A stretch of 64,000 nt of DNA. Origin: Indolivaga alginatilytica. Its GTDB lineage: Bacteria; Bacteroidota; Bacteroidia; Bacteroidales; Dysgonomonadaceae. Of the stretch, positions 4,305-54,018 are shown one piece after another. The stretch spans positions 79,265 to 143,264 of the forward strand of contig NZ_QICL01000008.1 of NCBI RefSeq assembly GCF_003201355.1. The letters run 5' to 3'. Each line of letters starts with the position of its first letter. The first letter of the stretch is position 1. The notes below the pieces were generated by a model, which was not told where the DNA came from, did not search any database, and saw only the letters and a program-made list of their open reading frames with translations. A program made the position numbers and the translations under genes.

Positions 4305-4451
4305 TTGGTCTAAGGTTACAAATCTATTACTATCATTGTAGCATATCTATAGTAAAGGGTATATTGTTGCCTCTGAATGATAATCTTTTATGTTATTTTG
4401 CCTTACGTGAGAGGCAAAAAGGTTTAAAGCTTATAAATGAACTAAATTAAG

Positions 4452-6860
4452 ATGGGTATTTTGATACGGAAAGAGCTGCTTTCGATATTATGTTCGGGTA
4501 TAGGATTGTTTTTTGCACTGATATTTTTAGTTGCAAGTGGAAGTATGCTGTGGTTTTTTGAGGGAAATTTCAATATAATGGATACAGGCTATGCTACTTT
4601 AGAGAAATTTTTTAGTCTTTCGTCTATTCTCTTTGTTCTGCTAATTCCTGCATTGACCATGCGCCTTATTGCTGAAGAGAAACGTAATCGAACGCTTGAT
4701 ATGCTTCGTTCCCGTCCCATTAGTATATCTGCTATTATTGGTAGTAAATGGCTTGCTTCCTTACTATTTGTAGTATTAGTTCTACTTCCGACTTTTATAT
4801 ATGTTTATACTCTGTATGTTTTGGGCAGTCCCGTCGGAAATCTAGACTTAGTAGTTATAATGATTTCTTATTTGTCGCTAATTGGTTTAGGAGGCGTTTT
4901 TATAGCTGTCGGGATATTTGCTTCATCACTTTCTCAGAATCAGATCATAGCATTTGTAGTAGCCTTATTTATCAATTTTGTGATTTATTTTGGCTTCGAT
5001 CTATTAAGTGCTCTTTTTGATGCAGGAGCTACCAGAGTTTTTGTTGCGTCCTGCGGTTTGTCATATCATTTGTCAGAGGTGCAACGCGGCGTTATCAGCA
5101 TGAATAATGTGTTGGCATTCTTCAATTATATATTTATCATCTATTTGACGACTCTGTGCGTATTGAGCCTGAAAAACAAAAAGACAAATAAAAGATTGAT
5201 TGTATATGGGTTCGGTATTTTAGTTTTGAATGTTGTGATGCTGTTTTTACCAAATTCCCGGTTTGATTTTACAGCAGATAAAAGATATACAATCAGCGAT
5301 TATTCGAAGGCATTAGTCGGTTCTCTTGCTGAGAGTGAATCTTCGCAGGTAAAAATCAATGTGTATTTAGAGGGTAATCTTAACTTTGGTTTTCAGCGTT
5401 TGAGAAATGCTACTAATCAGTTTCTCGGCGATTTGAATAGGTATGCAGGTTATAAAATGGAAATCTCATTTATAAACCCTGCTACATTGAATGTATCGAG
5501 AGAAGAATTGCCTGATTATATGGCGCATCGTGAAATGCCACCGATTATGCTCAATGAAGTTGATCGTGATGGAAAAGTCAGCAAGCAGTTGATTTATCCG
5601 TATGCAGAGGTGATTGTGGATGGCGATACATTGCAAGTCTCTTTGTTGAAGAATATAAAAGGCAATACGGCAGAAGAAAATTTGACAGCTTCAATTGTGA
5701 ATCTCGAATTTCAGTTTGTCGATGCTTTACGTCTTTTAATGAGAAACGAACCTCAGGCTATTGCTTTTATAGAAGGGCATGGAGAATTACCGAGAGCTTA
5801 TGTCTATGATGCCGAGGAAGCTTTAGCTAAATACTTTTTTGTAAACAGAGGCGAAATAGGTGTTGATCCCTCTATTCTTGATAACTTCAGAGTCGTAATT
5901 ATTGCAGGGCCTACCAAAAGATATTCCGAAGCGGAGAAGTACATTCTCGATCAGTATTTAATGAAAGGCGGACGCATTCTCTGGTTGATAGATGGTGCAT
6001 ATGTGTCTTTAGAAGATTTGGCCAATAAAGGGCAATCGGCAAGTATGAGGAATGAAACGGGATTAGATGATTTGTTGTTTACTTACGGTGTGCGGATTGA
6101 ATCTAATTTCGTTCAGGATGCTCAGTCTACTCAAATATTGGTTCAGAACGATTCAGAGGCACAACCTGTAACTATTCCCTGGTATTATTCGCCGTTGTTA
6201 CTTCCTTCTTTAGATAATATAATTACAAAAGATATAACAGAGGTAAAGGCTGCCTTTGTGAGCAGTGTTGATGTATTGAATAAATCGAAGTCAGTTTCAA
6301 AGAATATTCTTCTTACCACATCACAACATAGTCGTATTGTTCCTGTTCCCGAGATGATAACCTTCGATGTGGAACATATTCAATCCGATGTGCATTATTT
6401 TAATGAATCTTTTCTGTCTGTTGGAGTCTCATTGAAAGGTACTTTTCAATCGGCTTTTAATAACAGGCTTGTTCCCGATAGTGTAAGCCTGCAAGGATAT
6501 AAAACCCGTTTAGAGAGTGCTGATGCTAAAATGATAGTCGTAGGCTCATCAGACATCATAAGGAATGAAGTAATAGGGCAGGGCGATAATACAGAGGTTT
6601 TGCCGATGGGGTATGATCGTATTTCGGGACGTAGATATGGGAATAAAGATTTTATAGTAAATGCAGTCAATTGGCTTGCTAATGATGATGGCTGGATGGA
6701 GCTTCGTTCGAAGACTCAGGTACTAAATTTGTTGGATAAGAAACTTATTTATGAGCATAGAAACAAATATGCTGTATTAAACATTCTTTTTCCTGTGTGT
6801 TTTATTGGATTGCTTATTGGCGGTGTGATCCTGCGCCGTCGTTATAAATATATCCGTTAA
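4452..6860 (+). CDS. GldF-GldG fusion, ABC transporter permease/auxiliary protein
   Basis: An 802-residue fusion. Residues about 1-240 are a six-helix ABC-2 type permease like GldF ('MGILIRKELLSI', 'LIPALTMRLIAEEKRNRTLDMLRSRP'). After another membrane segment (about 250-270), residues about 275-770 form the periplasmic ABC_transp_aux domain of GldG ('FIEGHGELPRAYVYDAEEAL', 'ILWLIDGAYVSL'), and a C-terminal membrane helix (about 775-795) ends in a positive tail. In Flavobacterium GldA (ATPase), GldF and GldG form a transporter linked to gliding motility; Bacteroidales that do not glide often keep a fused homologue of unknown task. No GldA-type ATPase gene is present in this window. The gene stands alone and is followed by a terminator. 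Confidence 0.85.
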   Translation: MGILIRKELLSILCSGIGLFFALIFLVASGSMLWFFEGNFNIMDTGYATLEKFFSLSSILFVLLIPALTMRLIAEEKRNRTLDMLRSRPISISAIIGSKWLASLLFVVLVLLPTFIYVYTLYVLGSPVGNLDLVVIMISYLSLIGLGGVFIAVGIFASSLSQNQIIAFVVALFINFVIYFGFDLLSALFDAGATRVFVASCGLSYHLSEVQRGVISMNNVLAFFNYIFIIYLTTLCVLSLKNKKTNKRLIVYGFGILVLNVVMLFLPNSRFDFTADKRYTISDYSKALVGSLAESESSQVKINVYLEGNLNFGFQRLRNATNQFLGDLNRYAGYKMEISFINPATLNVSREELPDYMAHREMPPIMLNEVDRDGKVSKQLIYPYAEVIVDGDTLQVSLLKNIKGNTAEENLTASIVNLEFQFVDALRLLMRNEPQAIAFIEGHGELPRAYVYDAEEALAKYFFVNRGEIGVDPSILDNFRVVIIAGPTKRYSEAEKYILDQYLMKGGRILWLIDGAYVSLEDLANKGQSASMRNETGLDDLLFTYGVRIESNFVQDAQSTQILVQNDSEAQPVTIPWYYSPLLLPSLDNIITKDITEVKAAFVSSVDVLNKSKSVSKNILLTTSQHSRIVPVPEMITFDVEHIQSDVHYFNESFLSVGVSLKGTFQSAFNNRLVPDSVSLQGYKTRLESADAKMIVVGSSDIIRNEVIGQGDNTEVLPMGYDRISGRRYGNKDFIVNAVNWLANDDGWMELRSKTQVLNLLDKKLIYEHRNKYAVLNILFPVCFIGLLIGGVILRRRYKYIR

Positions 6861-6872
6861 ATATGATAATAA

Positions 6873-6904
6873 AGAAGAGGCAGAATCTTGATGCTGCCTC
6901 TTCT
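6873..6904. terminator. Bidirectional terminator
   Basis: 11-bp perfect stem AGAAGAGGCAG / CTGCCTCTTCT between the convergent gldFG and nitroreductase genes. Confidence 0.75.
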
Positions 6905-7528: not shown

Positions 7529-7769
7529 AATTCTTTATAATTTAGTTCATGTAAAATAACAGTTTGTCACTCTGGTTTGTTGTTGTGATAGTTTTTTTTA
7601 AGAAACTCCTAATAGGTATTTCTATATATTCACAGAATAATTATCTGTGAAAATGCGTATCTGTAAATGTAGCGAAAATATATGTAATGTTAAGTGAATG
7701 AAAGTACTTAATAATACATATATTTTTAAAGTAAATAAGAAAATGTAAACAGATTTATACCTGCCTGAA

Positions 7770-7794
7770 GCAACAAAAAGGTTTGAGATCTTAA
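7770..7794 (+). repeat. Dispersed intergenic hairpin, copy 1
   Basis: GCAACAAAAAGG followed by TTTGAGATCTTAA. The core AAGGTTTGAGATCTT is a slightly imperfect palindrome, and the AAGCAAnAAAAAGG lead is shared with the copy before korC. Confidence 0.6.
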
Positions 7795-14726: not shown

Positions 14727-14743
14727 TTAAGGTCGCAGACCTA
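14727..14743 (-). repeat. Dispersed intergenic hairpin, copy 2
   Basis: Minus strand reads TAGGTCTGCGACCTTAAAA, preceded by GCAACAAA. It contains the TAG stop (14741-14743) of the homocysteine methyltransferase gene and lies upstream of the ABC-F -7 box. Confidence 0.7.
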
Positions 14744-15697
14744 TTTGTTGCTTTTTTTCTCAAAAATCATCTGTTTATTTGAGATTCTTTTTGCAATTTG
14801 TTCTATATGTGTATTGTCTGTGCCACAGCACCCTCCTACAATATTAAGGTTAATGAACTCATTTAATTTAATAATTTCGTTGGCAAGCTCAATACTATCG
14901 GAACATTTTAAGTCGGCGGAGTTATCTAATTCCTCAGGCGAAAGGGGAGATGTATTTGCCTGTATTCCACCGAAGCGTTCTTTTACGAGTGGGGTTTGAT
15001 TAAATTCTTTTTCTAATGCCGAATATAAAATCTTAGGATGTACACAATTAGCCATATAACAAACGGGCTTTTGTTGTGTTGATTTATCTATTAGCATAAT
15101 AGCATCGTGGATGGAAGTCCCGTCTATTAAACACCCGTTTTCTAGAATCATAAAACTTATAATATATGGTAAATGGGTTTCCTCTAAAGCTTTTGCCATT
15201 CCGATAGCTTCGGATAGTGCCGGCATAATGGCTGCAAACAAAAAATCGACTTTCGATTCATGGAATAAGTTGGCTTGCCACGAATGAAATTTCTTGGCTT
15301 TTTCAATAGATAGCATATCTTTAGCTTGATAGGCATCTCCTTTGCATCCCATAAGTCCTCCTGTAAACATGGTTGTTGAGCTACTTGCTTTAATCGATCT
15401 TAAGAAGGAAACATTTTCGGAGATGATATCTTCGCTGTATTTCGACTGATTAACACGTTCTTTATTAGCTCGTCGGGTAGGTGTGGTAGCAATAAAAGGG
15501 AGATTATGTTTTTCAGCAATAGCTATGTACTCATTCCATAGATACGTTAAAGCTTGACGACCTTCGTTGGTATAAATGAGGCTTGCCATCGCTACATCAG
15601 CATCAAAAGATAGATTATATTCGCGTTTCAATCGTTCTCCCAATGCACCTTCCATTAAAAGAGGAGATTTATTTGTATAGCATGTTAAGAAATCCAT
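14741..15697 (-). CDS. Homocysteine S-methyltransferase-family protein
   Basis: A 318-residue single-domain enzyme of the S-methyl_trans (Pfam) family. The zinc ligands are visible as Cys in 'MANCVHP' and the C-terminal pair in 'IVGGCCGTDNTHI', the signature of BHMT/MmuM and the N-terminal domain of MetH. The N-terminal 'LLMEGALGERLKREY' and 'GGLMGCKGDAY' match the barrel. Such proteins move a methyl group from a donor (S-methylmethionine, betaine or other) to homocysteine in the cytosol; the donor here is unknown. No other methionine gene is near. It is followed without a gap by a dispersed hairpin that starts in the stop codon, then the ABC-F promoter. Confidence 0.85.
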   Translation of the reverse strand: MDFLTCYTNKSPLLMEGALGERLKREYNLSFDADVAMASLIYTNEGRQALTYLWNEYIAIAEKHNLPFIATTPTRRANKERVNQSKYSEDIISENVSFLRSIKASSSTTMFTGGLMGCKGDAYQAKDMLSIEKAKKFHSWQANLFHESKVDFLFAAIMPALSEAIGMAKALEETHLPYIISFMILENGCLIDGTSIHDAIMLIDKSTQQKPVCYMANCVHPKILYSALEKEFNQTPLVKERFGGIQANTSPLSPEELDNSADLKCSDSIELANEIIKLNEFINLNIVGGCCGTDNTHIEQIAKRISNKQMIFEKKSNK

Positions 15698-20359: not shown

Positions 20360-21730
20360 ATGCCAAAATATATTAAAATAAAGAAAGGTCTGAATATTCC
20401 GATAGAAGGTAGTGCACCTGAAGTTTTTATGGGTCATATAAAGCCATCTATCCTCCGAATTATACCTGAAGATTTTCCCGGTCTTATTCCTAAAGTAGAT
20501 GTTAAAGTTGGAGATCACGTGAAGGCAGGTACACCTTTAATGCACGATAAAAGGAATGATCAATTAGTATTTGTATCCCCTGTGAGTGGTATCGTGGTAT
20601 CGATCACACGAGGCGAAAAACGAAAACTTCTGGATATCACTATAGAAGCAGATAAAGAGATTCAACAGGAAGTTTTGGATACTGCTCTGATAGAGGATAA
20701 TACAGCAGATGGAATAAGAACGAAACTATTGAAAGCCGGACTTTGGCCTTTTATCAAGCAACGTCCCTATGATATAATTGCAGACCCCAATGTCTCTCCC
20801 CGTGATATATTTATTACCGGATTTTCTTCTGCCCCCTTGGCTCCTTCATATGATTTTATAATAGAAAACGAACTTCAGGCTTTCCAAAAAGGTATTGAAG
20901 CTTTGTCTGAACTGACTTCCGGAACAATGTATATGGGAATTAGTCCCGGTACTAAATCGGTAGCTTTACTTGATGCGAAGAATGTTGAGATTTGTGAATT
21001 TGAAGGACCTCATCCTGCCGGAAATACCGGAGTCCAAATCAATGCAATAAAACCTGTAAATAAAGGTGAAACAGTCTGGACTATTACCGCACCCGATGTG
21101 TTGATAATTGGTCGTTTTCTACTAAAGGGATATGTTGATTTTACTCGTCTTGTGGCATACACAGGTTCGGAAACTGTAAAGAAAGGATATTATTCTGTAG
21201 TAATTGGTTCCAAACTCGATCGGCTATTTGAAGCTAATGTTACAAGAGGTGATAACTTGCGTTATATATCGGGTAATGTGTTAACAGGTACGCAGATTGA
21301 TAAGGAGGGATCGCTTCGTTTTTATGATTCACAAATTACAGTGATTCCCGAGGGGGATGATAAGCACGATTTTGTGGGTTGGGCTTCTGTCGGATTAAAT
21401 AAAAAATACAGTGCAGGAGGTACTTACTTATCTAAGTTAGTGAGTTTATTGAAGCCTGATAAGAAATATCGTTTAGATGCCCGTTTGATGGGCGGTCGTC
21501 GTGCCATAATTATGTCTAATGAGTATGATAAAGTATTCCCGATGGATATTCTTCCGGAGCAACTGATAAAGGCTACAATAACATACAATGTAGATAAGAT
21601 GGAACAACTTGGTATATATGAAGTTGCTCCCGAAGATTTTGCATTGTGCGAATTTGTTGATACTTCAAAACTCGAAATCCAGAAGGAGATTAGAGAAGGA
21701 CTTCTCAAATTGAAGAAAGAAATGGAATGA
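20360..21730 (+). CDS. nqrA: Na+-translocating NADH:quinone reductase subunit A
   Basis: A 456-residue NqrA, first gene of the nqr operon. The protein begins 'MPKYIKIKKGLNIPIEGSAP' and contains 'SPVSGIVVSITRGEKRKLLDI', the biotinyl-lipoyl-like fold, 'GPHPAGNTGVQINAIKP' and 'GNVLTGTQIDKEG', all typical of the family. NqrA is the soluble cytoplasmic subunit and is linked to the quinone site of the six-subunit Na+ pump. The operon continues with nqrB after an unusually long 340-nt gap that holds a foldback element and a dispersed hairpin, so subunit stoichiometry may depend on reading or processing through this gap. Confidence 0.96.
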   Translation: MPKYIKIKKGLNIPIEGSAPEVFMGHIKPSILRIIPEDFPGLIPKVDVKVGDHVKAGTPLMHDKRNDQLVFVSPVSGIVVSITRGEKRKLLDITIEADKEIQQEVLDTALIEDNTADGIRTKLLKAGLWPFIKQRPYDIIADPNVSPRDIFITGFSSAPLAPSYDFIIENELQAFQKGIEALSELTSGTMYMGISPGTKSVALLDAKNVEICEFEGPHPAGNTGVQINAIKPVNKGETVWTITAPDVLIIGRFLLKGYVDFTRLVAYTGSETVKKGYYSVVIGSKLDRLFEANVTRGDNLRYISGNVLTGTQIDKEGSLRFYDSQITVIPEGDDKHDFVGWASVGLNKKYSAGGTYLSKLVSLLKPDKKYRLDARLMGGRRAIIMSNEYDKVFPMDILPEQLIKATITYNVDKMEQLGIYEVAPEDFALCEFVDTSKLEIQKEIREGLLKLKKEME

Positions 21731-21750
21731 AGTTTTTATGTTTCATATTA

Positions 21751-21947
21751 AGAGTCTATTTAAATTTTACCGAACTATTTTTATTATGGAATGCTGTCAT
21801 TGTTCTTTGCTACTTTTTTAAGCTCTTTTGAGCCTCTTTTTCACTTATTCCTCTTGATTCAGCCCGCTGAATCTGCTAGTAATAAGTGAAAAATAGATCT
21901 CAAAATAAGTCTTGAAAAAAGAAAGCAATAAAATTTAAACAGACTCT
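21751..21947. repeat. 197-bp foldback (MITE-like or structured-RNA) element
   Basis: Ends are 19-bp inverted repeats with one mismatch: AGAGTCTATTTAAATTTTA (21751-21769) and its complement (21929-21947). Inside, 21837-21849 (TTTTTCACTTATT) pairs perfectly with 21881-21893, and the tip is GATTCAG / CTGAATC (21856-21862 with 21867-21873). TTGCT-rich and AAGCAA-rich arms between also pair, with gaps. The whole element can fold as one long imperfect hairpin. No open frame lies inside and no clear target-site duplication was found. Confidence 0.8.
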
Positions 21948-22010
21948 AAGTAATTCGAACTATTTAATGCGATGATTTATCAGCACAACTATCTCCGGTT
22001 ATTATGTTTG

Positions 22011-22039
22011 CCAAAGGAATAAAAAGGTCTGCGACCTTA
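22011..22039 (+). repeat. Dispersed intergenic hairpin, copy 3
   Basis: CCAAAGGAATAAAAAGG then TCTGCGACCTTA. The core AAGGTCTGCGACCTTA (22024-22039) has 6-bp arms. The lead sequence is nearly the same as that of the copy before the korC gene. Confidence 0.8.
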
Positions 22040-22070
22040 GTTGAAAGTTTTATAAAAAATAGATATAACA

Positions 22071-23306
22071 TTGAAGTCACTAAGAAATCAACTGGATAAT
22101 AGAATAAAACCTCATTTCGAAAAAGGTGGTAAGTTCGAAAAATTGCATTCATTATATGATGCAGTAGATACATTTTTGTATGTACCGAATACTACCTCTA
22201 AAAGTGGAGTGCATATACATGATGCCTCTGATACGAAGCGAACCATGTCATTGGTTATTCTGGCTTTAATTCCTGCGTTATTGTTCGGAATGTATAATGT
22301 CGGTTACCAACATTATCAGGCAATAGGCGAAGTTCCTGTTTTCTGGAACTGTTTTCTGTTCGGTTTATTGGCAATTCTACCTAAAATAGTTGTGTCATAT
22401 GTGGTAGGATTGGGTATTGAGATTATTATAGCACAGATTAAAGGACACGAAGTACAGGAGGGGTTTCTGGTGTCGGGTATGTTGATTCCTATGATCGTAC
22501 CTGTTGATCTTCCTCTATGGATGCTTGCCGTTGCTACAGCTTTTGCCGTTGTATTTGCTAAAGAAGTTTTTGGAGGAACAGGTTATAATATATTTAATGT
22601 AGCCTTGGTAGCAAGGGCATTTTTGTTTTTTGCATACCCATCTAAAATGACAGGAGAACATGTATTCGTTCGTGCTGAAAATAGCTTTGGAGTGGGAGAT
22701 GCAAATATGGTGGATGGTATTACACAAACGGTAGACGCTTTTTCGGGAGCTACTCCCTTATCACAAATAGAAACTGCCACAGGAAACAGTGTCACATTGG
22801 TTGACGTTACGGGGCATGTACTTACTTATTGGGATATGTTTTTGGGGCTTATTCCCGGATCGATAGGTGAAACATCCAAATTAGCCATTCTGATAGGCGC
22901 AATTATTATGATCTTATTTGGCGTTGCCAGCTGGAAAACAATGGTGTCAGTTTTTATTGGAGGAATGGCAACAGCTCTTCTTATTAATCAGTTTGCTGTA
23001 AATGCGGTGATGCAGATAACTCCTTTGGAACATATTCTGTTGGGAGGCTTTGCTTTTGGTGCTGTTTTTATGGCTACCGATCCTGTTACGTCTGCTCGCA
23101 CCGAATCAGGAAAATGGGTCTATGGATTCCTTATCGGAGTGATAGCTGTTTTGATCCGTGTCTTTAATCCCGGTTATCCGGAAGGGATGATGTTGGCTAT
23201 ACTATTTATGAATGCTTTTGCTCCTCTGATCGATTATGTGGTAGTCGGGAAAAATATTAAACGCAGAATGAGGCGGGCAACTCAAAAAAATGATAAAAGT
23301 GTATGA
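22071..23306 (+). CDS. nqrB: Na+-translocating NADH:quinone reductase subunit B
   Basis: A 411-residue integral membrane subunit with about ten helices. The covalent FMN motif S225-G-A-T228 is in 'VDAFSGATPLSQ', with the flavin expected on Thr228. The N-terminus 'KSLRNQLDNRIKPHFEKGGKFEKLHS' matches family starts exactly, which fixes initiation at the TTG codon 22071-22073; an in-frame stop lies 18 nt upstream and no ATG or GTG is available. NqrB carries electrons through FMN and riboflavin and forms the main Na+ path. It overlaps nqrC by 4 nt (ATGA), so the two are translationally coupled. Confidence 0.95.
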   Translation: MKSLRNQLDNRIKPHFEKGGKFEKLHSLYDAVDTFLYVPNTTSKSGVHIHDASDTKRTMSLVILALIPALLFGMYNVGYQHYQAIGEVPVFWNCFLFGLLAILPKIVVSYVVGLGIEIIIAQIKGHEVQEGFLVSGMLIPMIVPVDLPLWMLAVATAFAVVFAKEVFGGTGYNIFNVALVARAFLFFAYPSKMTGEHVFVRAENSFGVGDANMVDGITQTVDAFSGATPLSQIETATGNSVTLVDVTGHVLTYWDMFLGLIPGSIGETSKLAILIGAIIMILFGVASWKTMVSVFIGGMATALLINQFAVNAVMQITPLEHILLGGFAFGAVFMATDPVTSARTESGKWVYGFLIGVIAVLIRVFNPGYPEGMMLAILFMNAFAPLIDYVVVGKNIKRRMRRATQKNDKSV

Positions 23307-24010: not shown

Positions 24011-24011
24011 A

Positions 24012-24644: not shown

Positions 24645-24664
24645 ACTAGATACAGTCTGAATAG

Positions 24665-24680
24665 AAGGTTTGAAACCTTA
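24665..24680 (+). repeat. Dispersed intergenic hairpin, copy 4
   Basis: AAGGTTTGAAACCTTA, 20 nt after the nqrD stop. Arms AAGGTTT/AAACCTT show a paired change (C:G to T:A) relative to the GGTC/GACC copies, so the stem is preserved. Confidence 0.75.
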
Positions 24681-24714
24681 AATATGATTATCAGAAAAAA
24701 AGAACTGAACGATT

Positions 24715-25332: not shown

Positions 25333-25365
25333 GTTCTTAGACTTTTACATAATTTACTTAACGAT

Positions 25366-25800: not shown

Positions 25801-25810
25801 ATAATAAATG

Positions 25811-25825
25811 AGGTATCAGACCTTA
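25811..25825 (+). repeat. Dispersed intergenic hairpin, copy 5
   Basis: AGGTATCAGACCTTAAAA, 10 nt after the stop of the inserted gene and 20 nt before nqrF. One arm is diverged (GGTa/GACC). Confidence 0.55.
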
Positions 25826-25845
25826 AAAGATAAAAGTGAAAATTT

Positions 25846-30523: not shown

Positions 30524-30613
30524 ATATTGACTATCATTTTTGTAAATAAGTAATATTAAATATGTATTACTTTAGATTATAATTAAAACTATCTCTTGTT
30601 TTTATTCCTAAAT

Positions 30614-30642
30614 CAATTTTAAGGTCTTAGACCTTAAAATTG
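30614..30642 (-). repeat. Dispersed intergenic hairpin, copy 6 (overlaps recJ stop)
   Basis: A perfect palindrome with 13-bp arms CAATTTTAAGGTC / GACCTTAAAATTG and a 3-nt loop. The core AAGGTCTTAGACCTTA (30621-30636) contains the recJ TAA (30634-30636), and the last recJ codons lie in one arm. Confidence 0.8.
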
Positions 30643-32355: not shown

Positions 32356-32671
32356 TATATATTGTTTTTTTCTTTTCTCTGTCGGGGTAGAAGCTTTGTT
32401 ATGCCTCTAATGCTCTTTGTATCAGTGATTATTTATATATAATATTATAGCTGACACATTTAGGTATATCTCGTAAAGATACTATTTATATATAACACTG
32501 AATAGTGATTTTGTGTTTTTGTTGTTGAAAAAAAAATGAGAATTCCAAGATTTATTGATTAATAATTCTTTATAAGGCTGCAAACCTTATTGTAATTTTG
32601 CGGGCTGAAAAAACAGAGATAGCTCTAATTATAGTCTAAGGTAATAACCTACGTAAGGTTACCTGTACGGA
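32356..32671. other. Intergenic region between recJ and the TonB receptor gene
   Basis: No gene seen. It contains one dispersed hairpin (32572-32590), a rightward TAATTTTG box just after it (32593-32600) pointing against the TonB receptor gene, and a small imperfect inverted repeat (32640-32663) next to the receptor's 3' end. Confidence 0.55.
32572..32590 (-). repeat. Dispersed intergenic hairpin, copy 7
   Basis: Plus strand ATAAGGCTGCAAACCTTAT: 5-6-bp arms TAAGG/CCTTA with a 7-nt middle. A rightward TAnnTTTG box starts 3 nt after it. Confidence 0.6.
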
Positions 32672-35083: not shown

Positions 35084-35138
35084 ATTCTGCTTGGAATGAA
35101 TTTCTGGAAATCTCTGTGAAAATAGATTCAATAATGCT

Positions 35139-35170
35139 CAAAGTTAATTTATATTTTAGAATTTATACAA
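35139..35170 (-). promoter_or_regulatory. Promoter of the TonB receptor gene
   Basis: Minus strand TTG (35168-35170), spacer 21 nt, TAACTTTG (35139-35146); leader about 50 nt. Confidence 0.6.
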
Positions 35171-35352
35171 GGACGAAGGAGCAGATTACCTGTTGTGGAT
35201 GAAAAAGTTTATTTTATTAATACTTTCTTATCAAAATTATCTATTGGCAATATGCTTGTGTATCTTGTTTTTAAGTGTAATCGGATAATGCCTTCTTAAC
35301 ATTCTGTTGACAATTTTATGGATAAAAAAGAATGGAATGTGATAATAAGCTA

Positions 35353-35360
35353 TAACTTTG
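35353..35360 (+). promoter_or_regulatory. -7 box of the 2-oxoacid oxidoreductase operon
   Basis: TAACTTTG matches TAnnTTTG; leader of about 65 nt to the ferredoxin gene. -33 element unclear. Confidence 0.55.
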
Positions 35361-35432
35361 TATCCATTCAACTGACCGGAAAACGAAATGTGGAATTATC
35401 AAAAGTAAATTGACAACTATCTATAATAAGAT

Positions 35433-35660
35433 ATGGCAAAAGTAAAAGGAACAGTAGTGGTCGACGTCGAACGATGTAAAGGCTGCGATCTCTGTGTTGT
35501 ATCCTGTCCTTGTGACGTGCTTGAATTGCAGGCTCGCGAGGTAAACGAAAAAGGATATCATTACGTATTTATGAAAAATGAGGATGCATGCATCGGATGT
35601 GCCAATTGTGGCTATGTTTGTCCTGATGGATGTTTAACCGTATATAGACAAAAAGGCTAA
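35433..35660 (+). CDS. korD: 2-oxoacid:ferredoxin oxidoreductase, ferredoxin (delta) subunit
   Basis: A 75-residue 2x[4Fe-4S] ferredoxin. The first cluster motif is 'CKGCDLCVVSCPCDVL', the second 'CIGCANCGYVCPDGC', so all eight ligands are present with an extra Cys (in 'CPCDVL'). It is the first gene of a four-gene operon whose products form a thiamine-dependent oxidoreductase; this subunit passes electrons from the TPP site to free ferredoxin. The alpha gene follows after 54 nt. Subunit naming (Kor for 2-oxoglutarate, Vor for branched-chain 2-oxoacids) cannot be settled from sequence alone. Confidence 0.88.
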   Translation: MAKVKGTVVVDVERCKGCDLCVVSCPCDVLELQAREVNEKGYHYVFMKNEDACIGCANCGYVCPDGCLTVYRQKG

Positions 35661-35714
35661 TTTCTTAGGAATATTAGTCTTTTGTAGTATATTAACTTAC
35701 TCCAATTAAAAGTT

Positions 35715-36797
35715 ATGTCAGAAGAAATATATTTGATGAAGGGCAACGAGGCAATCGCCCATGCTGCAATTCGCATAGGAGTTGATGGCTACTTCGGCTA
35801 TCCTATTACTCCCCAATCGGAAATTATAGAAACATTGATGGCCGAAGCTCCCTGGACAACAACCGGTATGGTTGTAATGCAGGCTGAGAGCGAAACCGCC
35901 TCTATCAATATGGTATATGGAGGTGCAGGCTGCGGTAAAATGGTGATGACATCATCGTCAAGTACAGGTATGAGCCTTATGCAGGAAGGTGTTTCTTTCC
36001 TTGCAGGAGGTAATTTGCCTTGCCTGCTTATTAATGTAATGCGTGGTGGTCCCGGTCTGGGAACTATTCAACCATCTCAATCTGATTATTTTCAGACTGT
36101 AAAGGGTGGGGGACATGGCGATTATAAAATGATAACTCTTGCTCCGGCATCGGTTCAGGAAATGGCCGATTTTGTAGATCTGGGGTTTGAACTTGCGTTT
36201 AAATATTCGACACCTGCTACCATACTTGCAGATGGTGTAATCGGACAAATGATGGAAAAAGTAAAACTTCCAGAATTTAGAAGAAGACGTACAGAGAAAG
36301 AAATACGCGAACAATGTCCTTGGGCAACGTTGGGCAAACCTGCCGATCGTAAACCCAATGTTATTACGACCCTTCAGTTGGATTCTGCCGTGATGGAAAA
36401 ATGTAATTTAGATTTGCAGGCAAAATATAAAGAAATTGAAGCCAATGAAATAAGATATCAGGAGATAGATTGTGAGGATATAGATTATCTTATAGTAGCC
36501 TTTGGGTCGGCTGCCCGTATCAGTCAAAAAGCGATTGAACTGGCTAGAGCAGAAGGTATAAAGGTGGGAGTATTAAGACCGATAACACTGTGGCCTTTCC
36601 CAACGAAGATTATTAAGGAATATGCTTCGAAGGTAAAAGGGATATTGACTGTAGAAATGAATGCCGGACAAATGGTTGAAGATGTACGTTTATCTGTAAA
36701 CGGGCAAGTTCCGGTTGAACACTTCGGACGTTTGGGGGGAATTATTCCTACACCTAATGAAGTAGTTGTTGCTTTAAAAGAAAAAATGGGTTGTTAG
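35715..36797 (+). CDS. korA: 2-oxoacid:ferredoxin oxidoreductase alpha subunit (KorA/VorB type)
   Basis: A 360-residue alpha subunit. The pyrimidine-binding N-domain starts 'YLMKGNEAIAHAAIRIGVDGYFGYPITPQSEI', with 'QAESETASINMVYGGAGCGKMVMTSSSSTGMSLM' following, and the C-terminal part holds 'VGVLRPITLWPFP' and 'VEMNAGQMVEDVRL'. The family oxidatively decarboxylates a 2-oxoacid with CoA to acyl-CoA, CO2 and reduced ferredoxin; the same reaction in reverse is used in reductive carboxylation. Annotators often call this subtype 3-methyl-2-oxobutanoate dehydrogenase VorB, so branched-chain oxoacids are a strong alternative to 2-oxoglutarate. Confidence 0.9.
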   Translation: MSEEIYLMKGNEAIAHAAIRIGVDGYFGYPITPQSEIIETLMAEAPWTTTGMVVMQAESETASINMVYGGAGCGKMVMTSSSSTGMSLMQEGVSFLAGGNLPCLLINVMRGGPGLGTIQPSQSDYFQTVKGGGHGDYKMITLAPASVQEMADFVDLGFELAFKYSTPATILADGVIGQMMEKVKLPEFRRRRTEKEIREQCPWATLGKPADRKPNVITTLQLDSAVMEKCNLDLQAKYKEIEANEIRYQEIDCEDIDYLIVAFGSAARISQKAIELARAEGIKVGVLRPITLWPFPTKIIKEYASKVKGILTVEMNAGQMVEDVRLSVNGQVPVEHFGRLGGIIPTPNEVVVALKEKMGC

Positions 36798-36843
36798 TTT
36801 TAAATCGCAACCCCTTATTAATGTACTTAAGGATATAAATAGA

Positions 36844-37602
36844 ATGAGCACCAGTATAATAGATCCAAAGAATTTGGTATATGCCAAACCCGTATTGATG
36901 AACGAAACCCAGATGCATTATTGCCCGGGTTGTTCGCATGGTGTTGTCCATAAATTGGTTGCAGAAGTAATCGATGAAATGGGCTTGAAAGAAATAACTA
37001 TAGGTATAGCTCCTGTGGGCTGTGCTGTATTTGCATATGATTATTTAGATATCGACTGGCAGGAGGCTGCACATGGTAGGGCTCCGGCTTTGGCTACTGC
37101 GGTAAAACGCTTAAATCCTGATAAGATGGTATTTACATATCAAGGCGATGGAGACTTAGCTGCCATTGGTACTGCCGAAACTATTCATGCTGCCAACCGT
37201 GGCGAAAATATTGCTATTATTTTTATAAATAATGGTATATATGGTATGACCGGCGGACAAATGGCTCCGACTACTTTGATGAATATGAAAACTTCGACTA
37301 CGCCCAATGGTCGTGATACCCATGAAAATGGATATCCATTGAAGATTACCGATTTATTGGCTCAATTGCCGGGTGTTTGTCTGGCTACACGACACAGTGT
37401 ACATACAGCTGGTGCCGTGAAAAAAGCGAAAAGAATGATTGCTAAAGCTTTCCAGAATTCGTTGGACGGCAAAGGTACTTCTATTGTAGAAATAGTTTCT
37501 ACTTGCAGTGCCGGTTGGAAAATGAGTCCTGCAGGAGCAAATGACTGGATGGTAGAAAATATGTTTCCTGTATATCCTATGGGTGACATAAAAAATATCT
37601 GA
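36844..37602 (+). CDS. korB: 2-oxoacid:ferredoxin oxidoreductase beta subunit (TPP-binding)
   Basis: A 252-residue beta subunit that binds the diphosphate of thiamine diphosphate. 'HYCPGCSHGVVHKL' has the conserved Cys pair, 'YQGDGDLAAIGTAETIHAANRGENIAIIFINN' is the TPP/Mg motif (GDGD-x-NN type), and 'NGIYGMTGGQMAPTT' follows. It acts with the alpha subunit to form the active site. The stop codon lies in a degenerate copy of the dispersed hairpin, and a complete copy comes 80 nt later before the gamma subunit gene; this gap of 122 nt is the longest in the operon. Confidence 0.93.
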   Translation: MSTSIIDPKNLVYAKPVLMNETQMHYCPGCSHGVVHKLVAEVIDEMGLKEITIGIAPVGCAVFAYDYLDIDWQEAAHGRAPALATAVKRLNPDKMVFTYQGDGDLAAIGTAETIHAANRGENIAIIFINNGIYGMTGGQMAPTTLMNMKTSTTPNGRDTHENGYPLKITDLLAQLPGVCLATRHSVHTAGAVKKAKRMIAKAFQNSLDGKGTSIVEIVSTCSAGWKMSPAGANDWMVENMFPVYPMGDIKNI

Positions 37603-37616
37603 TCTGAGACCTTGAA
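37602..37616 (+). repeat. Degenerate dispersed hairpin, copy 8
   Basis: TCTGAGACCTTGAAT at the korB stop keeps the right half of the core (CTGAGACCTT) but lacks the left arm AAGGT. Confidence 0.35.
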
Positions 37617-37680
37617 TAAGTAACTGAAAGTATTTAATGACCTGTTTTATAAATATAACTAGCTTTGGCTTTTATACTTA

Positions 37681-37709
37681 CCAAAGCAATAAAAAGGTCT
37701 GAGACCTTA
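37681..37709 (+). repeat. Dispersed intergenic hairpin, copy 9
   Basis: CCAAAGCAATAAAAAGG then TCTGAGACCTTA. Core AAGGTCTGAGACCTTA at 37694-37709; 15 nt before the korC start. The first 23 of 29 positions match the copy before nqrB almost completely. Confidence 0.85.
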
Positions 37710-37724
37710 AGAAGAAAATAAATA

Positions 37725-38282
37725 ATGGTAAACGAAATTATTATAGCCGGATTCGGTGGACAAGGCGTATTATCGATGGGTAAGATTTTAGCTTACTCAG
37801 GTTTAATGGAAGGAAAAGAGGTTTCGTGGTTTCCGTCATATGGTCCCGAACAACGTGGAGGAACAGCAAATGTAACTGTCATATTGAGTGACAATACTAT
37901 CAGTTCGCCTATTGTTAGTGAATATGATATTGCAATAATATTGAACCAGCCATCACTCGATAAATTCGAATCTCAGGTTAAGCCGGGAGGTATTTTGCTT
38001 TATGATCCCGAAGGTATTCCACGTGCGCCCAAAAGAACCGATATCTCGGTCTATAAAATAGAAGCTATGGCTACGGCCTCCGAGCTTAAAAATCAGAAAG
38101 CATTCAATATGTTTGTTTTGGGTGGATTGCTTAAAGTGTGTCCTATAGTTACATTAGAGCATGTAATGATGGGCTTAAAAAAATCTCTTCCCGAAAGGCA
38201 CCACAGCATGCTACCCATGAACGAACAAGCTATTTTGAAGGGAATGGAAATTGTAGAAGAAATGAATAAATCTGCTTCATAA
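37725..38282 (+). CDS. korC: 2-oxoacid:ferredoxin oxidoreductase gamma subunit
   Basis: A 185-residue gamma subunit. It begins 'EIIIAGFGGQGVLSMGKILAYSG' (the glycine-rich loop of the family), then 'SWFPSYGPEQRGGTANVTVILSD' and 'AIILNQPSLDKFESQVKPGG', all diagnostic. The gamma domain helps bind CoA and closes the oxidoreductase complex. It is the last of the four subunit genes, starts 15 nt after a dispersed hairpin, and is followed by a terminator. Confidence 0.93.
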   Translation: MVNEIIIAGFGGQGVLSMGKILAYSGLMEGKEVSWFPSYGPEQRGGTANVTVILSDNTISSPIVSEYDIAIILNQPSLDKFESQVKPGGILLYDPEGIPRAPKRTDISVYKIEAMATASELKNQKAFNMFVLGGLLKVCPIVTLEHVMMGLKKSLPERHHSMLPMNEQAILKGMEIVEEMNKSAS

Positions 38283-38318
38283 TATCAAAATCAATAAAGC
38301 GGCTCATTTGAAATAAAA

Positions 38319-38361
38319 AAATACCCGGGTTGTATGTTGCAAACATATTACTTGGGTATTT
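38319..38361 (+). terminator. Terminator of the oxidoreductase operon
   Basis: Two-part stem: AAATACCC (38319-38326) with GGGTATTT (38354-38361), plus an inner TATGTT / AACATA hairpin. The downstream T-run is modest. Confidence 0.6.
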
Positions 38362-38378
38362 AATTTGAAAAATATTGT

Positions 38379-38386
38379 TAATTTTG
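38379..38386 (+). promoter_or_regulatory. -7 box for the flavoprotein gene
   Basis: TAATTTTG, leader about 37 nt. No well-spaced -33 element. Confidence 0.4.
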
Positions 38387-38429
38387 TCGATAACAAAAAT
38401 AGTAATTCTACCTTATCAAAACTGGATAT

Positions 38430-39461
38430 ATGGAAATAAAGCATTTTAATACGATTATTATAGGAGGTGGTCCGGCAGGCATTACGTGTGGCTATATATT
38501 GACAAAAAATAGCAAGGAATGCCTCATCATTGATAGAGCAGAATTTCCACGTGAAAAATTGTGCGGGGGAGGACTTACGCCTAAAGCCCATAAGATAGTT
38601 AAATCTATTTTTGGAGAAATAACGTACGATTATCATGCGGTTAATAATTTTGAGGTATATTCGGATAATAAGTATTTGTGTACTTACCGCTTATATACCG
38701 AAACAAGAACAGTAAGCAGAAAAGAATTTGATTATGTATTATACAAAGAATATATTAATATTGGAGGTAAAATACAGCAGGGAAAACCAACCGTAATAGA
38801 GGAGAAAGAGGGTAAGGTATACATTACTCTTGCCGATGGGCAGCTTTTTTCGTGCGACTATCTTGTTGGTGCAGACGGAGCCAATAGTTTTGTACGTAAC
38901 TATTTACACCCTAATCGATCGAAAGGAATTATATGTTTAGAAACAGCTACTGATGATAAATCTATCGAAAACATACAAGTTTTTTTTCCAAAAGAGTTTG
39001 TAGGAGGATTTGCCTATATTTTCCCAAATAAAGATGGGTGTGTAGTCGGATGCGGATATGAAAATCTGGATGTAAATGTATTTCGAAAATATTTGAAAGA
39101 TAATAATATAGTAAGCAATCAGCGAATTAGGGGAGCGTATATTCCGATGTTCGATAAAATAGATTACCCTTTCAAAGATAATATAATACTGATAGGAGAT
39201 GCCGGAGGCTATGCCGATTCTATATCGGGAGAAGGTCTATATTATGCCTTCAAAACAGGCGAAAATGCGGCTATATCTATAATCAATAACAGTTCTTTTG
39301 AGATTCAGAATAGAGACGTGATCAAAAAAATACTCAAGACAACGAAATGCTCAAATCTGTTTTATAACAAATTAGTAAACAGCTTATTCTTATTTCTCTT
39401 TAAGAAAGGGTTTCAACATCGTAGAATCGAAAAATTGTTGAATCGCTATCTCGGTTTTTAA
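38430..39461 (+). CDS. FAD-dependent oxidoreductase, geranylgeranyl-reductase-like
   Basis: A 343-residue flavoprotein of the GGR/FixC-like group. The FAD dinucleotide motif is 'NTIIIGGGPAGITCGYIL' at the N-terminus, 'REKLCGGGLTPKA' follows (typical of GGR and CbrA), 'YLVGADGANSFVRNYL' is the DG-type second motif and 'ILIGDAGGYADSISGEGLYYAFKTGENAA' the GD motif near the flavin. The C-terminus 'LFLFLFKKGFQHRRIEKLL' is hydrophobic and basic and may sit at the membrane. Family members reduce isoprenoid or lipid double bonds or oxidise related substrates; which one is unknown. It stands between the oxidoreductase operon and der. Confidence 0.8.
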   Translation: MEIKHFNTIIIGGGPAGITCGYILTKNSKECLIIDRAEFPREKLCGGGLTPKAHKIVKSIFGEITYDYHAVNNFEVYSDNKYLCTYRLYTETRTVSRKEFDYVLYKEYINIGGKIQQGKPTVIEEKEGKVYITLADGQLFSCDYLVGADGANSFVRNYLHPNRSKGIICLETATDDKSIENIQVFFPKEFVGGFAYIFPNKDGCVVGCGYENLDVNVFRKYLKDNNIVSNQRIRGAYIPMFDKIDYPFKDNIILIGDAGGYADSISGEGLYYAFKTGENAAISIINNSSFEIQNRDVIKKILKTTKCSNLFYNKLVNSLFLFLFKKGFQHRRIEKLLNRYLGF

Positions 39462-39505
39462 CTTTACGGAGAAGAAGCTTTTATTCGGGCAAAAAAACAT
39501 TAAAT

Positions 39506-39520
39506 AGGTCGGGGACTTTA
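39506..39520 (+). repeat. Dispersed intergenic hairpin, copy 10
   Basis: AGGTCGGGGACTTTAAAA after a CAAAAAAACAT lead, 17 nt upstream of the der -7 box, so it lies across the -33 region. Confidence 0.5.
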
Positions 39521-39537
39521 AAACGATAAAAAATAAG

Positions 39538-39545
39538 TATCTTTG
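39538..39545 (+). promoter_or_regulatory. -7 box for der
   Basis: TATCTTTG followed by CACC; leader of about 22 nt. Confidence 0.6.
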
Positions 39546-39573
39546 CACCAAATAAGATAGATCTTAATAATTT

Positions 39574-40899
39574 ATGGGAAATTTAGTAGCGATTGTTGGA
39601 CGTCCAAATGTAGGAAAATCAACACTTTTCAATCGTCTGATACAAACTCGTCAGGCTATTGTTGATGAGACTTCGGGGACAACTCGCGACAGACAATACG
39701 GTAAAACAGAGTGGGGAGGACTAGAGTTCTCTGTGGTTGATACCGGTGGATGGGTTGTAAACTCGGATGATATTTTTGAGGAAGAAATCAATAAGCAAGT
39801 GAAAATTGCGATACAAGAAGCAGATGTAATTCTGTTTGTAGTAGATGTAATGAATGGTGTTACTGATCTGGATTTGGGCGTGGCTCATATCTTGCGTAGA
39901 GCAAAAGGTAAACCTGTTATTTTAGTAACAAATAAGGCTGACAATTTTAATGTTCACCCGCTTTCTGCTGAGTTTTACTCATTAGGATTGGGTGATCCAA
40001 TAAATATTTCGGCAATAAACGGCGCCGGAACTGGTGATCTGCTTGATTTAGTTATCAGTAAGTTTACGAAGAAAGACGATCAGGTATTCGATACTTATGA
40101 GGATACTATACCTCGTATTGCAGTAGTAGGTCGCCCTAATGCCGGAAAATCATCGTTCGTAAATGCTTTGATTGACGAAGAGCGTAATATTGTAACCGAT
40201 ATTGCCGGTACAACACGTGATTCGGTATATACTCGTTTCGATAAGTTCAATATGGACTTTTATCTGGTTGATACAGCAGGTATTCGCAAGAAAGGAAAAG
40301 TTACGGAAGACTTGGAGTATTATTCGGTAATCCGTTCTATTAAAGCAATCGAAAATTCGGATGTTTGCGTTTTGATGCTTGATGCTACACAAGGTATCGA
40401 AAGTCAGGACTTGAATATATTCTCTATTATTCAAAAGAATAGGAAGGGATTAGTTGTATGTGTGAATAAATGGGATTTAGTAGAAAATAAAGAGCAGATT
40501 GTTGTTAAGACATTCGAAAATACAATTCGTGAAAGATTAGCTCCTTTTACTGATTTTCCTATTGTATTTGCTTCCGCATCAACAAAACAGCGTATTCTTA
40601 AGGTTTTAGAAATGGCTAAAGAGGTTTATACTCATAAAAAAGTTAGAATACCTACTCATAAGCTGAATGAGGTGATGTTGCCTATCATAGAGCGTACACC
40701 GCCTCCCTCAAATAAAGGGAAATATGTTAAGATTAAATACATTACCCAATTACCCAATACGCAGGTTCCTACGTTTGTGTTCTTCTGTAATTTACCTCAG
40801 TGGATTAAAGACCCATATAAACGCTTCTTGGAGAATCGTATTCGAGAGCATTGGAATTTGTCAGGTACACAAATCAATATTATTATTAGAGAGAAATAA
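39574..40899 (+). CDS. der: Ribosome assembly GTPase Der (EngA)
   Basis: A 441-residue tandem GTPase. G1 motifs '[12 protein letters not shown]' (residues about 8-19) and '[12 protein letters not shown]', switch motifs 'DTGGW' and 'DTAGI', and G4 motifs 'TNKAD' and 'NKWD' are all present in both domains, followed by the C-terminal KH-like domain ('[31 protein letters not shown]'). Der acts in maturation of the 50S subunit and is essential in most bacteria. It is monocistronic with its own promoter and a 20-bp terminator stem downstream. Confidence 0.98.
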
Positions 40900-40935
40900 G
40901 GGTTATACTCTCTCTCTTTCTGATATTTAATAGAA

Positions 40936-40978
40936 TATAAAAGGAAAACCGATCTGTAAGATCGGTTTTCCTTTTATA
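40936..40978. terminator. Bidirectional terminator, der / aminotransferase
   Basis: 20-bp perfect stem (40936-40955 with 40959-40978), 3-nt loop, between convergent genes. Confidence 0.9.
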
Positions 40979-41004
40979 TATGATATGCTACTGATGATTT
41001 CCTC

Positions 41005-44277: not shown

Positions 44278-44321
44278 TAAAATTGATTTTAGTGTGAGAA
44301 TAGCTACTATCGCTAAGAGTT

Positions 44322-44336
44322 AGGTCTGCAACCTTA
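44322..44336 (-). repeat. Dispersed intergenic hairpin, copy 11
   Basis: Plus strand TAGGTCTGCAACCTTA. It starts at or within 2 nt of the expected transcription start of the beta-lactamase gene, so a transcript would begin with this hairpin. Confidence 0.6.
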
Positions 44337-52672: not shown

Positions 52673-53984
52673 TCTTAAGAACTTCTATCGTTTTGCCGGT
52701 TATTTTGAATCGGTCATCAATACGTTCACCTACAATCCATGCAATATCATCGGCAGAACATAGAAGCCATGTATTGTTTTTGTCTACTAAACTGAATTTA
52801 CGATCGGTAAAATAATCGCTTACTTTTTTGTGACCTTTCATCCCAAAGGGAATAAATTTATCGCCGTGTTTCCATCTGCGGATAATAAGAGGATATATCA
52901 ACCGACCTTTATCTAAGTAGATAATATTGGGGTCTTGTTCTATTTTAAACGATGAAGTTTTGCGGAACGATTCAAGTGTCATCTCGAAGGGCTCAACAAT
53001 CTCTGTTTCGTGTTCAAAAAGAGTATAAATACTATCGGGTTGATTGTTAATGGGTTCAAGTAGAAATGCTTCCCTGTCTTTTATGAGTTGATAATCGGTA
53101 GCATAAAAGATTTTACCGGATTGACCGTTTATTGAGTCAAAAATATTGTCGACAGTAGAGGTGTTGAATCCATAGGAAAACAGAATTTCGAAAAGAATGG
53201 TCTTCGGTTCTTTCTGCTTCAATAAGGCATTTATATCAATCTTATTGTCTGAAAATACTTTGCGTTTTGCCTTCTCAACATACGCATTATATATACTTTC
53301 GGTACGAGATAAGTTTTCAGATGTTCTTTGTATAGCCTGTACAACAGACGGGTTGATCGACTTAAGAAGAGGTATTACATTCAAACGTATTTTGTTCCGT
53401 GTATAAATATCTTCTTTATTGGTACTGTCCTCTACAAAGCCAATATGTCCGGCTTTCAGGTATTCGAGAATATCATCTCTGAAAATGCAGAGTAGGGGGC
53501 GGATCACTTTTCCGTTGATAGGAGCTATACCACTCAGTCCTCGTATTCCTGTACCTCTAATGAGGTTAATCAAAACGGTTTCTACCGAATCGTCCTGATG
53601 GTGCGCTACGGCAATTTTTTCGGCTTTGTATTCTTTTCTGATTTTTTCGAACCACGCATAACGCAGTTCGCGAGCGGCCATCTCTAAGGAAATAGATTCC
53701 TCTTCAATATATTTCTTTGTATCGAAATTTGCCGATACATATTTGAATTTATATTTGGATGCAATCTTTTCTACAAAATATTCGTCCCGGTACGATTCCT
53801 GCCCTCGCAGATGAAAATTGCAGTGTGCTACAATACAATCATATCCCAGATGATGAAGTATATCCAATAGAGCCATCGAATCGGCACCACCGCTAACTCC
53901 GATAATAACTGTAGCCTTATCGGTAAGTAGCGCATTATCCTGAATATATTTCTTTACTTTGGAGATAGTTTGCATGGACAGCAT
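52653..53984 (-). CDS. tilS: tRNA(Ile)-lysidine synthetase TilS
   Basis: A 443-residue TilS. The PP-loop ATP motif is 'VIIGVSGGADSMALLDIL' (about residues 27-44), 'IVAHCNFHLRGQESYRDE' and 'AVAHHQDDSVETVLINLIRGTGIRGLSGI' are strongly diagnostic, and the C-terminal domain is full ('RRWKHGDKFIPFGMKGHKKVSDYFTDRKF'). TilS modifies the CAU anticodon of tRNA-Ile so that it reads AUA; it is essential in most bacteria. The start may be Met1 or Met4 (53975). It lies 31 nt after the methyltransferase gene and is the last gene of a tamB operon. Its function bears on the ATA codon issue at tamB only by coincidence. Confidence 0.96.
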   Translation of the reverse strand: MLSMQTISKVKKYIQDNALLTDKATVIIGVSGGADSMALLDILHHLGYDCIVAHCNFHLRGQESYRDEYFVEKIASKYKFKYVSANFDTKKYIEEESISLEMAARELRYAWFEKIRKEYKAEKIAVAHHQDDSVETVLINLIRGTGIRGLSGIAPINGKVIRPLLCIFRDDILEYLKAGHIGFVEDSTNKEDIYTRNKIRLNVIPLLKSINPSVVQAIQRTSENLSRTESIYNAYVEKAKRKVFSDNKIDINALLKQKEPKTILFEILFSYGFNTSTVDNIFDSINGQSGKIFYATDYQLIKDREAFLLEPINNQPDSIYTLFEHETEIVEPFEMTLESFRKTSSFKIEQDPNIIYLDKGRLIYPLIIRRWKHGDKFIPFGMKGHKKVSDYFTDRKFSLVDKNNTWLLCSADDIAWIVGERIDDRFKITGKTIEVLKITLHQK

Positions 53985-54002
53985 TGTATTTTTTATGATA
54001 AA

Positions 54003-54018
54003 AAAGTCTGTGACTTTA
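54003..54018 (-). repeat. Dispersed intergenic hairpin, copy 12 (overlaps methyltransferase stop)
   Basis: Plus strand AAAGTCTGTGACTTTA: arms AAAGTC/GACTTT, a paired change (G:C to A:T) versus AAGGTC/GACCTT. Contains the TAA (54016-54018) of the methyltransferase gene; 18 nt before the tilS start. Confidence 0.7.

Follow-up and report, generated by a model that had tools for sequence, protein, structure and literature searches.

A probable MITE-like, TA-targeting repeat family found at gene edges in Dysgonomonas and related genera

Introduction

Bacterial miniature inverted-repeat transposable elements (MITEs) such as ERIC, RUP and Correia are described, in the excerpts of PMC2229807 and PMC2759123 used here, as AT-rich and mostly TA-flanked repeats of less than 200 bp. 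In a stretch of 64,000 nucleotides from a Dysgonomonadaceae genome (contig NZ_QICL01000008.1, positions 79,265 to 143,264; hereafter the window, with coordinates counted from its first letter), an original prediction made from the letters alone had proposed a family of short intergenic hairpins with paired base changes, resembling REP/BIME repeats or an RNA element. We report that most of these hairpins are the right end of a longer TA-flanked, AT-rich unit, and that the family is probably a short non-autonomous MITE-like mobile DNA element of the ERIC/RUP/BOX kind, which targets TA and is tolerated at gene edges.

The Dysgonomonas element is non-coding, shorter than 200 bp and present in many copies, with TA at both ends and empty sites in relatives. 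Some MITEs share their ends with a transposase-carrying insertion sequence (IS), whereas a partner IS of this element was not found in 857 kb of its own genome or, as a DDE_3 match, in six genomes. ERIC (IRU, RU-1; 127 bp, enterobacteria) is likewise short and intergenic, with terminal TA and a TA target duplication (excerpts of PMC2229807 and PMC2759123), but it has another sequence, and the present element is about 93 nt long, carries a perfect hairpin at one end alone and lives in Dysgonomonas and its relatives. RUP of Streptococcus pneumoniae (107 bp) is similar in size, in its TA target and in having about a hundred or more intergenic copies (excerpts of PMC2229807), but it shares its ends with IS630-Spn1. 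Correia/NEMIS of Neisseria (107 and 155 bp) is also a small TA-flanked repeat, with terminal inverted repeats of 24 bp where those of the Dysgonomonas element are weak (excerpts of PMC2229807). In S. pneumoniae, 36 copies of BOX supply the stop codon of a gene with no strong evidence of truncation, and SPRITE is terminator-like and lies near gene 3' ends (both according to the excerpts of PMC3049150); BOX is modular, whereas the present element docks exactly, nearly always at TAA, by one end. REP/BIME repeats share with it the many intergenic palindromes, but the GTAG or CGTC tag beside their hairpin (title of PMC3733652) is absent here and an association with a RAYT transposase was looked for and not found. 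Among the matches listed from open-licence literature (titles and abstract openings), there was no account of the element in Dysgonomonas, and it is a new family of an already known kind of tiny mobile element.

Anatomy of the element and its copies in the window

The flanks of the exact palindrome copies share an upstream stretch, and the alignment of 34 copies gave a unit of about 93 nt, TTAAGTAAYNNNAAATATTTAATGCTATATTTTA...TATAACTANCTNTNGTTGTTATRCTTGCCAAAGCAATAAAAAGGTCTGAGACCTTA, with an AT-rich body of about 89 nt and the conserved lead GCAATAAA. The ends in consensus form are TA-AGTAAY...AAGGTCTNNGACCT-TA. The lead that had been noticed beside several hairpins is therefore real, but the reading as a family of short hairpins was incomplete, since the lead appears to be the body of a mobile element and the hairpin its right end. 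The terminal inverted repeats, AGTAAYNNNAAATATTTAWTGC on the left and AGGTCNNAGACCTTTTTATTGC (reversed) on the right, are imperfect; the near-perfect palindrome seen as the hairpin makes up the outer part of the right one. When the two ends were matched to each other, the best agreement was found at offset 0, with 8.7 of 20 positions versus 4.3–7.1 at 12 other offsets. Of 81 left ends examined, 63 with the anchor A[AG]GTA[AG] were kept; 61 of these have T two positions ahead of the body, and the next position outwards is T in 37, A in 13, C in 11 and G in 2. The right ends were counted, like the placements given below, in 857 kb of the 5.12 Mb of own sequence with ORF-based gene calls (680 genes; ORF, open reading frame), and TTA forms the last three letters in 105 of 136. 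These base counts make TA the flank common to both sides, preferably in the context T-TA-A; a 3-bp TTA duplication was dropped in favour of TA, as the first base is free on the left while the T is fixed on the right. A recognised left part is lacking in 79 of the 136 right ends, some of which are diverged full copies such as that at 30547 in the window.

The described sequence was present at all 13 positions originally listed in the window, although its strength varied by site. A covariance model (CM) recovered five long copies, of which two have weak scores (E 0.0011 and 0.0015), besides a single right end at E 0.037. The copies and palindromes are as follows.

21947..22039, plus strand: full element; left TA 21947-21948, body 21949-22037, right TA 22038-22039; CM R1 97.5 bits, E 1.4e-14; the hairpin first listed at 22024-22039 is its right end
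30547..30636, plus strand: full element; CM 65.6 bits, E 5.5e-9; the terminal TTA (30634-30636) forms the TAA stop of recJ (30634-32355, minus)
37617..37709, plus strand: best full element of the window; CM 108 bits, E 2e-16; between two POR-type oxidoreductase genes (Pfam), ending 15 nt before the next ORF
32573..32667, minus strand: diverged full element; palindrome 32573-32589, left TA 32666-32667; CM 35.4 bits, E 0.0011 (weak)
7691..7793, plus strand: diverged full element; palindrome 7778-7793; CM 34.6 bits, E 0.0015 (weak)
14728..14754, minus strand: right end and part of the lead; CM 26.7 bits, E 0.037, model positions 76-102; TAG stop of ORF 14741-15697 (minus) at the start of the first arm
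24664..24680, plus strand: stand-alone palindrome downstream of an Rnf gene; the HGC4 ortholog keeps the hairpin with changed arms (GGTTT/AAACC vs GGCTTT/AAAGCC)
25809..25825, plus strand: stand-alone palindrome; the HGC4 ortholog has AAGT/ACTT in place of AGGT/ACCT
44320..44336, plus strand: stand-alone palindrome; right-end profile 9.4 bits
54002..54018, plus strand: weak right end AAAGTCTGTGACTTTA; CM 17.6 bits, E 1.4; the terminal TTA doubles as the stop codon of ORF 54016-55206 (minus)
39504..39520, plus strand: weak, imperfect palindrome; CM 14 bits, E 6
37601..37616, plus strand: degenerate older palindrome adjoining the 37617 element, present in HGC4; right-end profile 7.9 bits
4418..4433, plus strand: degenerate candidate within chance; 2 mismatches, no CM match up to E 10

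HGC4 is Dysgonomonas sp. HGC4, the closest named RecJ relative among the matches listed (97% identical). The original view that the hairpins lie outside genes holds: no site is wholly inside an ORF, those at 14727, 30621 and 54003 share just the last 3 nt, the stop codon, with one, and that at 37602 shares 1 nt. The lead at 14728-14754 may encode the last residues of ORF 14741-15697 (minus), because a right end in the same orientation carries its TAG stop. Paired arm changes occur among the sites, and the arms are imperfect at 7778, 32572 and 39506. As for the two sites suspected to be degenerate copies, 37602 is indeed a degenerate palindrome also found in HGC4, while 4419 is indistinguishable from chance. 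The palindrome at 44320-44336 is located 42 nt upstream of the start of a beta-lactamase-family gene (PF13354, 43384-44277, minus).

Single weak sites such as 4418 would be expected if the family consisted of chance palindromes in AT-rich gaps, but for the family itself this explanation has a negligible probability. The pattern TAAGGT-N3..8-ACCTTA with at most one mismatch gave 9 matches in the window versus 0–1 in each of five first-order shuffles (7 of the 9 are sites of the original prediction; 8579 and 9021 are additional), while at up to two mismatches it gave 27 versus 18–25. A right-end profile built from 34 copies, 3 of them from the window, gave at 12 bits or more 6 matches at 5 places versus 0.0 per 64 kb in 20 shuffles. 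In the whole genome, the exact palindrome AAGGTYTNNRACCTTA has 310 strand-matches (145 forward, 165 reverse; a perfect palindrome can count on both strands) versus 0 for the reversed control, and in a sample of 395 genomes of the phylum only this genome exceeds 5 matches.

Evidence for mobility

HGC4 is empty at four of the window sites and holds one copy of its own between two POR-type genes. It lacks the copy at 21947, where the absence sits inside a longer length difference; it lacks that at 30547, and its recJ ends at the same TAA; at 32573 it has 3 bases against 94 in the window; and the copy at 37617 is missing. Several further sites on contig C1 of the own genome (G000) are empty in one or both of the same-genus relatives G005 and G001. 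At C1 168507 the occupied site reads GGCTATTA-AGTAACAG...AAGACCT-TAAATAAG and the empty one in G005 reads GATGCTATTAAATAAG. At two sites, C1 168507 and 171264, both in G005, the empty sequence clearly closes on exactly one TA. Some relatives keep the palindrome or a shortened copy at the compared site (e.g. 180902 and 228267). Moreover, seven places match the 89-nt pattern, in which four ambiguous positions were allowed, with at most three mismatches, five of them with none, and the flanks differ among the three near-identical copies compared. The empty sites and the near-identical bodies show that the element has been copied. The paired changes had been taken to argue for selection rather than recent copying; the changes are there, but the contrast is a false one, since copying has occurred as well.

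Other repeats were seen as well. In several copies of the element the middle is replaced or interrupted by a long hairpin repeat like GTAGGGGCAGACC...GGTCTGCCCCTAC, which is missing from the orthologous copy of G001 at C1 252824. Another repeat of about 480–530 bp, with inverted ends AATCAGTAGTTGAAT / ATTCAACTACTGATT, has copies of 90–94% identity, and three of the six touch a copy of the small element or a palindrome. A repeat of about 430 bp (93% identical) is found at G000 C1 323546-323978 and 326449-326881, with partial matches elsewhere in C1 and in relatives. Within the window, 27113-27186 is another large intergenic difference, with 74 bases versus 327 in HGC4. The positions of the first two repeats are as follows.

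G000 C1 252824-252909, 254780-255010, 310300-310560, 197000-197260 and 199500-199720: long hairpin repeat inside copies of the element
G000 C1 248958, 365533, 382705, 429870 and 516907, and C2 76948: repeat of about 480–530 bp

Distribution across genomes

In the own genome (5,120,703 bases, 73 contigs) and its relatives the family is unevenly spread. A search of 60 relatives gave, for the five congeneric genomes (G001 to G005), 120, 0 (a genome 62% complete), 35, 134 and 101 exact palindromes; beyond the genus G019 has 13, G023 6 and G052 23, and the remaining 52 have 0–2. In the phylum sample, 43 genomes including the own have any match. The covariance model found matches in 9 of 14 chosen genomes: at least 150 each in G000, G001, G004 and G005 (all 150 candidates scored), 70 in G003, 23 in G019, 10 in G023, 5 in G010 and 1 in G002, and none in five genomes including G052. 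These matches suggest that the repeat occurs in Dysgonomonas and some related genera, three further genomes of the same bacterial family having fewer of them than the four richest. G052, from another Bacteroidales family, was rejected as a carrier, as its exact palindromes have no model match and their leads differ. Twelve of its 23 palindromes are AAGGTCTTCGACCTTA, and 2 of 12 loci read carry a lead like GCGTAAGCAAC..AAAAAGG, perhaps that of a distant cousin.

Pairing and covariation of the terminal stem

The structure statistics were taken from the best 150 of 167 model matches. By corrected mutual information, the pair 112-127 of the terminal stem stands out with 0.50 and 95% standard pairs, the next pair having 0.20 and 6%; its types in the 150 copies are GC 118, UA 10, CG 6, GU 5, UG 1, unpaired 7 and gap 3. 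Paired cells amount to 89.0% in the terminal stem, 73.7% and 76.4% in two candidate inner helices and 74.7% in end-to-end pairing. For the three helices jointly, both the percentage paired and the covariation score exceeded those of every shuffle, while 46 of 500 shuffles had at least as many pairs with both partners changed and 121 of 500 at least as many pair types. The alignment had been fitted to 5 stem pairs, and therefore the stem is favoured in these statistics; G-C, C-G and T-A types were likewise found by a search with the lead only, which ignores the stem and from whose 184 matches 94 copies were kept. Hence the compensatory changes that had been predicted are present, but they are concentrated in one base pair and alone are no proof of selection. 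Hairpins inside the body were rejected as conserved RNA, since none of their pairs ranks in the top 45 column pairs for corrected mutual information and, although their cells pair at 74–76%, RNAalifold predicts the terminal stem alone. As had been supposed, the family matches no known RNA: the window has no Rfam match at the gathering threshold, and four element loci searched at E<=0.5 gave just three chance-like microRNA matches, outside the element.

Orthologous stand-alone sites change symmetrically (24665, 25811 and others), and the arms pair at 5.4–5.6 of 6 positions in all copy classes. Selection for the shape and templated correction of quasi-palindromes at replication both fit such paired changes. 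Short, close palindromes are a classic substrate for templated correction, and several bases at 24665 change symmetrically at once between species, but the uniform arm pairing is equally expected from selection. We regard templated correction, which is compatible with a mobile element, as a tentative and rather doubtful source of the paired changes.

Placement at gene edges

The expectation that the family is genome-wide and almost purely intergenic was borne out, with 131 of 136 right ends not mainly genic and 5 lying for the most part within a called gene. Copies concentrate at gene edges, 13–34 nt ahead of starts and on the stop codons of opposing genes. Of the 136 right ends, 28 coincide exactly with the stop of an opposing gene (26 TAA, 1 TAG, 1 TGA), versus 495 such stops among 11,763 eligible TTA sites (4.2%; binomial p 3e-12). 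The same-strand control gave 0, and only 1 of 62 left ends lies on a same-strand stop; it is the right end that docks exactly on stops. The docked TAA is spelled by the TA and the element's own first base, A. In three compared cases (recJ in the window, C1 213773 and C1 253949) a relative that is empty or diverged there has its stop at the same position, so the element did not truncate these genes. Among the right ends facing a start, 35 of 65 lie 5–34 nt before it versus 12% of random intergenic TA, and among those facing a stop, 34 of 71 lie within -4 to 4 nt versus 2.8%, a control that over-weights long gaps. Of 57 full copies, 27 have the right end nearer to its gene and 30 the left; a right-end preference near starts is thus unsupported, and near-start placement is a property of the whole element.

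These placements also bear on another explanation, in which the host maintains an RNA hairpin, as a terminator or an mRNA-end protector, and the repeat is secondary. The reverse reading TAAGGTCTCAGACCTTTTTATT consists of a TAA stop, a hairpin and a T-run, like a small intrinsic terminator with a short 6-pair stem and about 5.1–5.8 T of 9, and before starts it would give a hairpin in the 5' untranslated region. In addition to the docking of the right end and the symmetric changes at orthologous sites, stand-alone palindromes are commoner than full copies at gene edges, both with the right end 13–34 nt before a start (21 of 35 versus 12 of 30) and at a stop (25 of 44 versus 9 of 27). Relatives also match them more often, in 15 of 26 comparisons versus 6 of 19 for full copies, rough counts that probably include a few chance matches and omit a few real ones. 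However, stops show no better retention of the T-run than other places (5.47 vs 5.57 of 9 positions are T in stand-alone palindromes, 5.11 vs 5.75 in full copies), so that its special upkeep there is unsupported; near starts the two ends of full copies do not differ in closeness; and most of the covariation is carried by one stem pair. A simple terminator scan of 21500-41000 gave 20 matches, 3 of them palindromes, and shuffles averaged 11.1. We consider a host-maintained hairpin possible but short of probable, and as a later use it is compatible with the mobile element. The palindrome seems to last longer than the remainder of the element and may do so as a hairpin at transcript ends.

Search for the transposase

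The high-copy intergenic palindromes and the single RAYT of the own genome (NF047646, 3.8e-32; its one PF01797 match) could point to a REP/BIME family, the resemblance named in the original prediction, moved by this Y1 transposase. But the RAYT gene is flanked by other palindromes (GGGATTTGCAATCCC, GGATTTCAAATCC), and the 3.2-kb loci of three Y1 genes (L060, L181, L182) contain no exact AAGGTC-type palindrome. While G001 and G003 have one PF01797 match each, none at E<=0.001 was found in G002, G004 and G005, and yet G004 and G005 are rich in copies. The membership therefore fails; RAYT was rejected as the mover of this element, and a REP/BIME origin is very improbable. The RAYT gene itself (L060:1450-1986) has its own palindromes, GGGATTTGCAATCCC upstream and GGATTTCAAATCC and CGGGATTATAAATCCCG downstream.

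A single-stranded mobility like that of IS200/IS605, with terminal hairpins recognised by shape, would explain both the covariation and the weak inverted repeats. It would fit the right-end hairpin, a possible left-end hairpin (73.7% of cells paired), and the TA on both sides if read as target and right-end cleavage sequence. A fixed target of 4–5 nt is a feature of the IS200/IS605 family, whereas here the target is just TA with AT context; the two copy-rich genomes have no Y1 match, and the ends of the element match each other at offset 0. We consider this route unlikely.

As a candidate autonomous copy, the best-scoring long pair of the own sequence, a left end at C2 44247 and a right end at C2 45561, was rejected, being two separate elements around an ORF, whose product we take from its sequence to be a porin. 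In the other six long end pairs the left end scores 9–13 bits.

Discussion

Several observations weigh against a TA-targeting MITE-like element. The inverted repeats are weak, with agreement at 12 of 24 consensus positions, and the TA on both sides could be target and element end instead of a duplication. Most empty-site pairs carry further base differences at the junction; C1 168507 is also empty in G001, but with TCA where G005 has TTA, and HGC4 has no TA at the inferred target of the 37617 site. The random-TA control is biased as said above. No gene-bearing copy with the ends of the element was found in the 857 kb, and no IS630-type DDE_3 match at E<=0.001 in the six genus genomes; the transposase may lie in the rest of the genome, be lost, or belong to another family. 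Nevertheless, we assume that a MITE-like element is the probable explanation, and the original interpretation is thus partly supported.

In such a scheme a transposase supplied in trans would move the element, and gene-edge copies would survive because promoter, ribosome site and coding sequence are spared. At old sites the palindrome may persist because it forms an RNA hairpin close to either end of the mRNA or, alternatively, because templated correction renews its symmetry. A bolder idea, which we think unlikely, is that the right end is tuned to stop codons: it would target antisense TTA, restore TAA with its own first base and install a hairpin and T-run at the gene end, so that its spread supplies 3' ends whose shape is then selected while the rest decays.

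The element accounts for a conspicuous repeat of Dysgonomonas, giving its ends, target and distribution. It also calls for caution, since the gene ends and 5' regions of Dysgonomonas are often element-made. Should the docking prove functional, the family would clearly exemplify mobile DNA that provides genes with their 3' ends and leaves the proteins unaltered.

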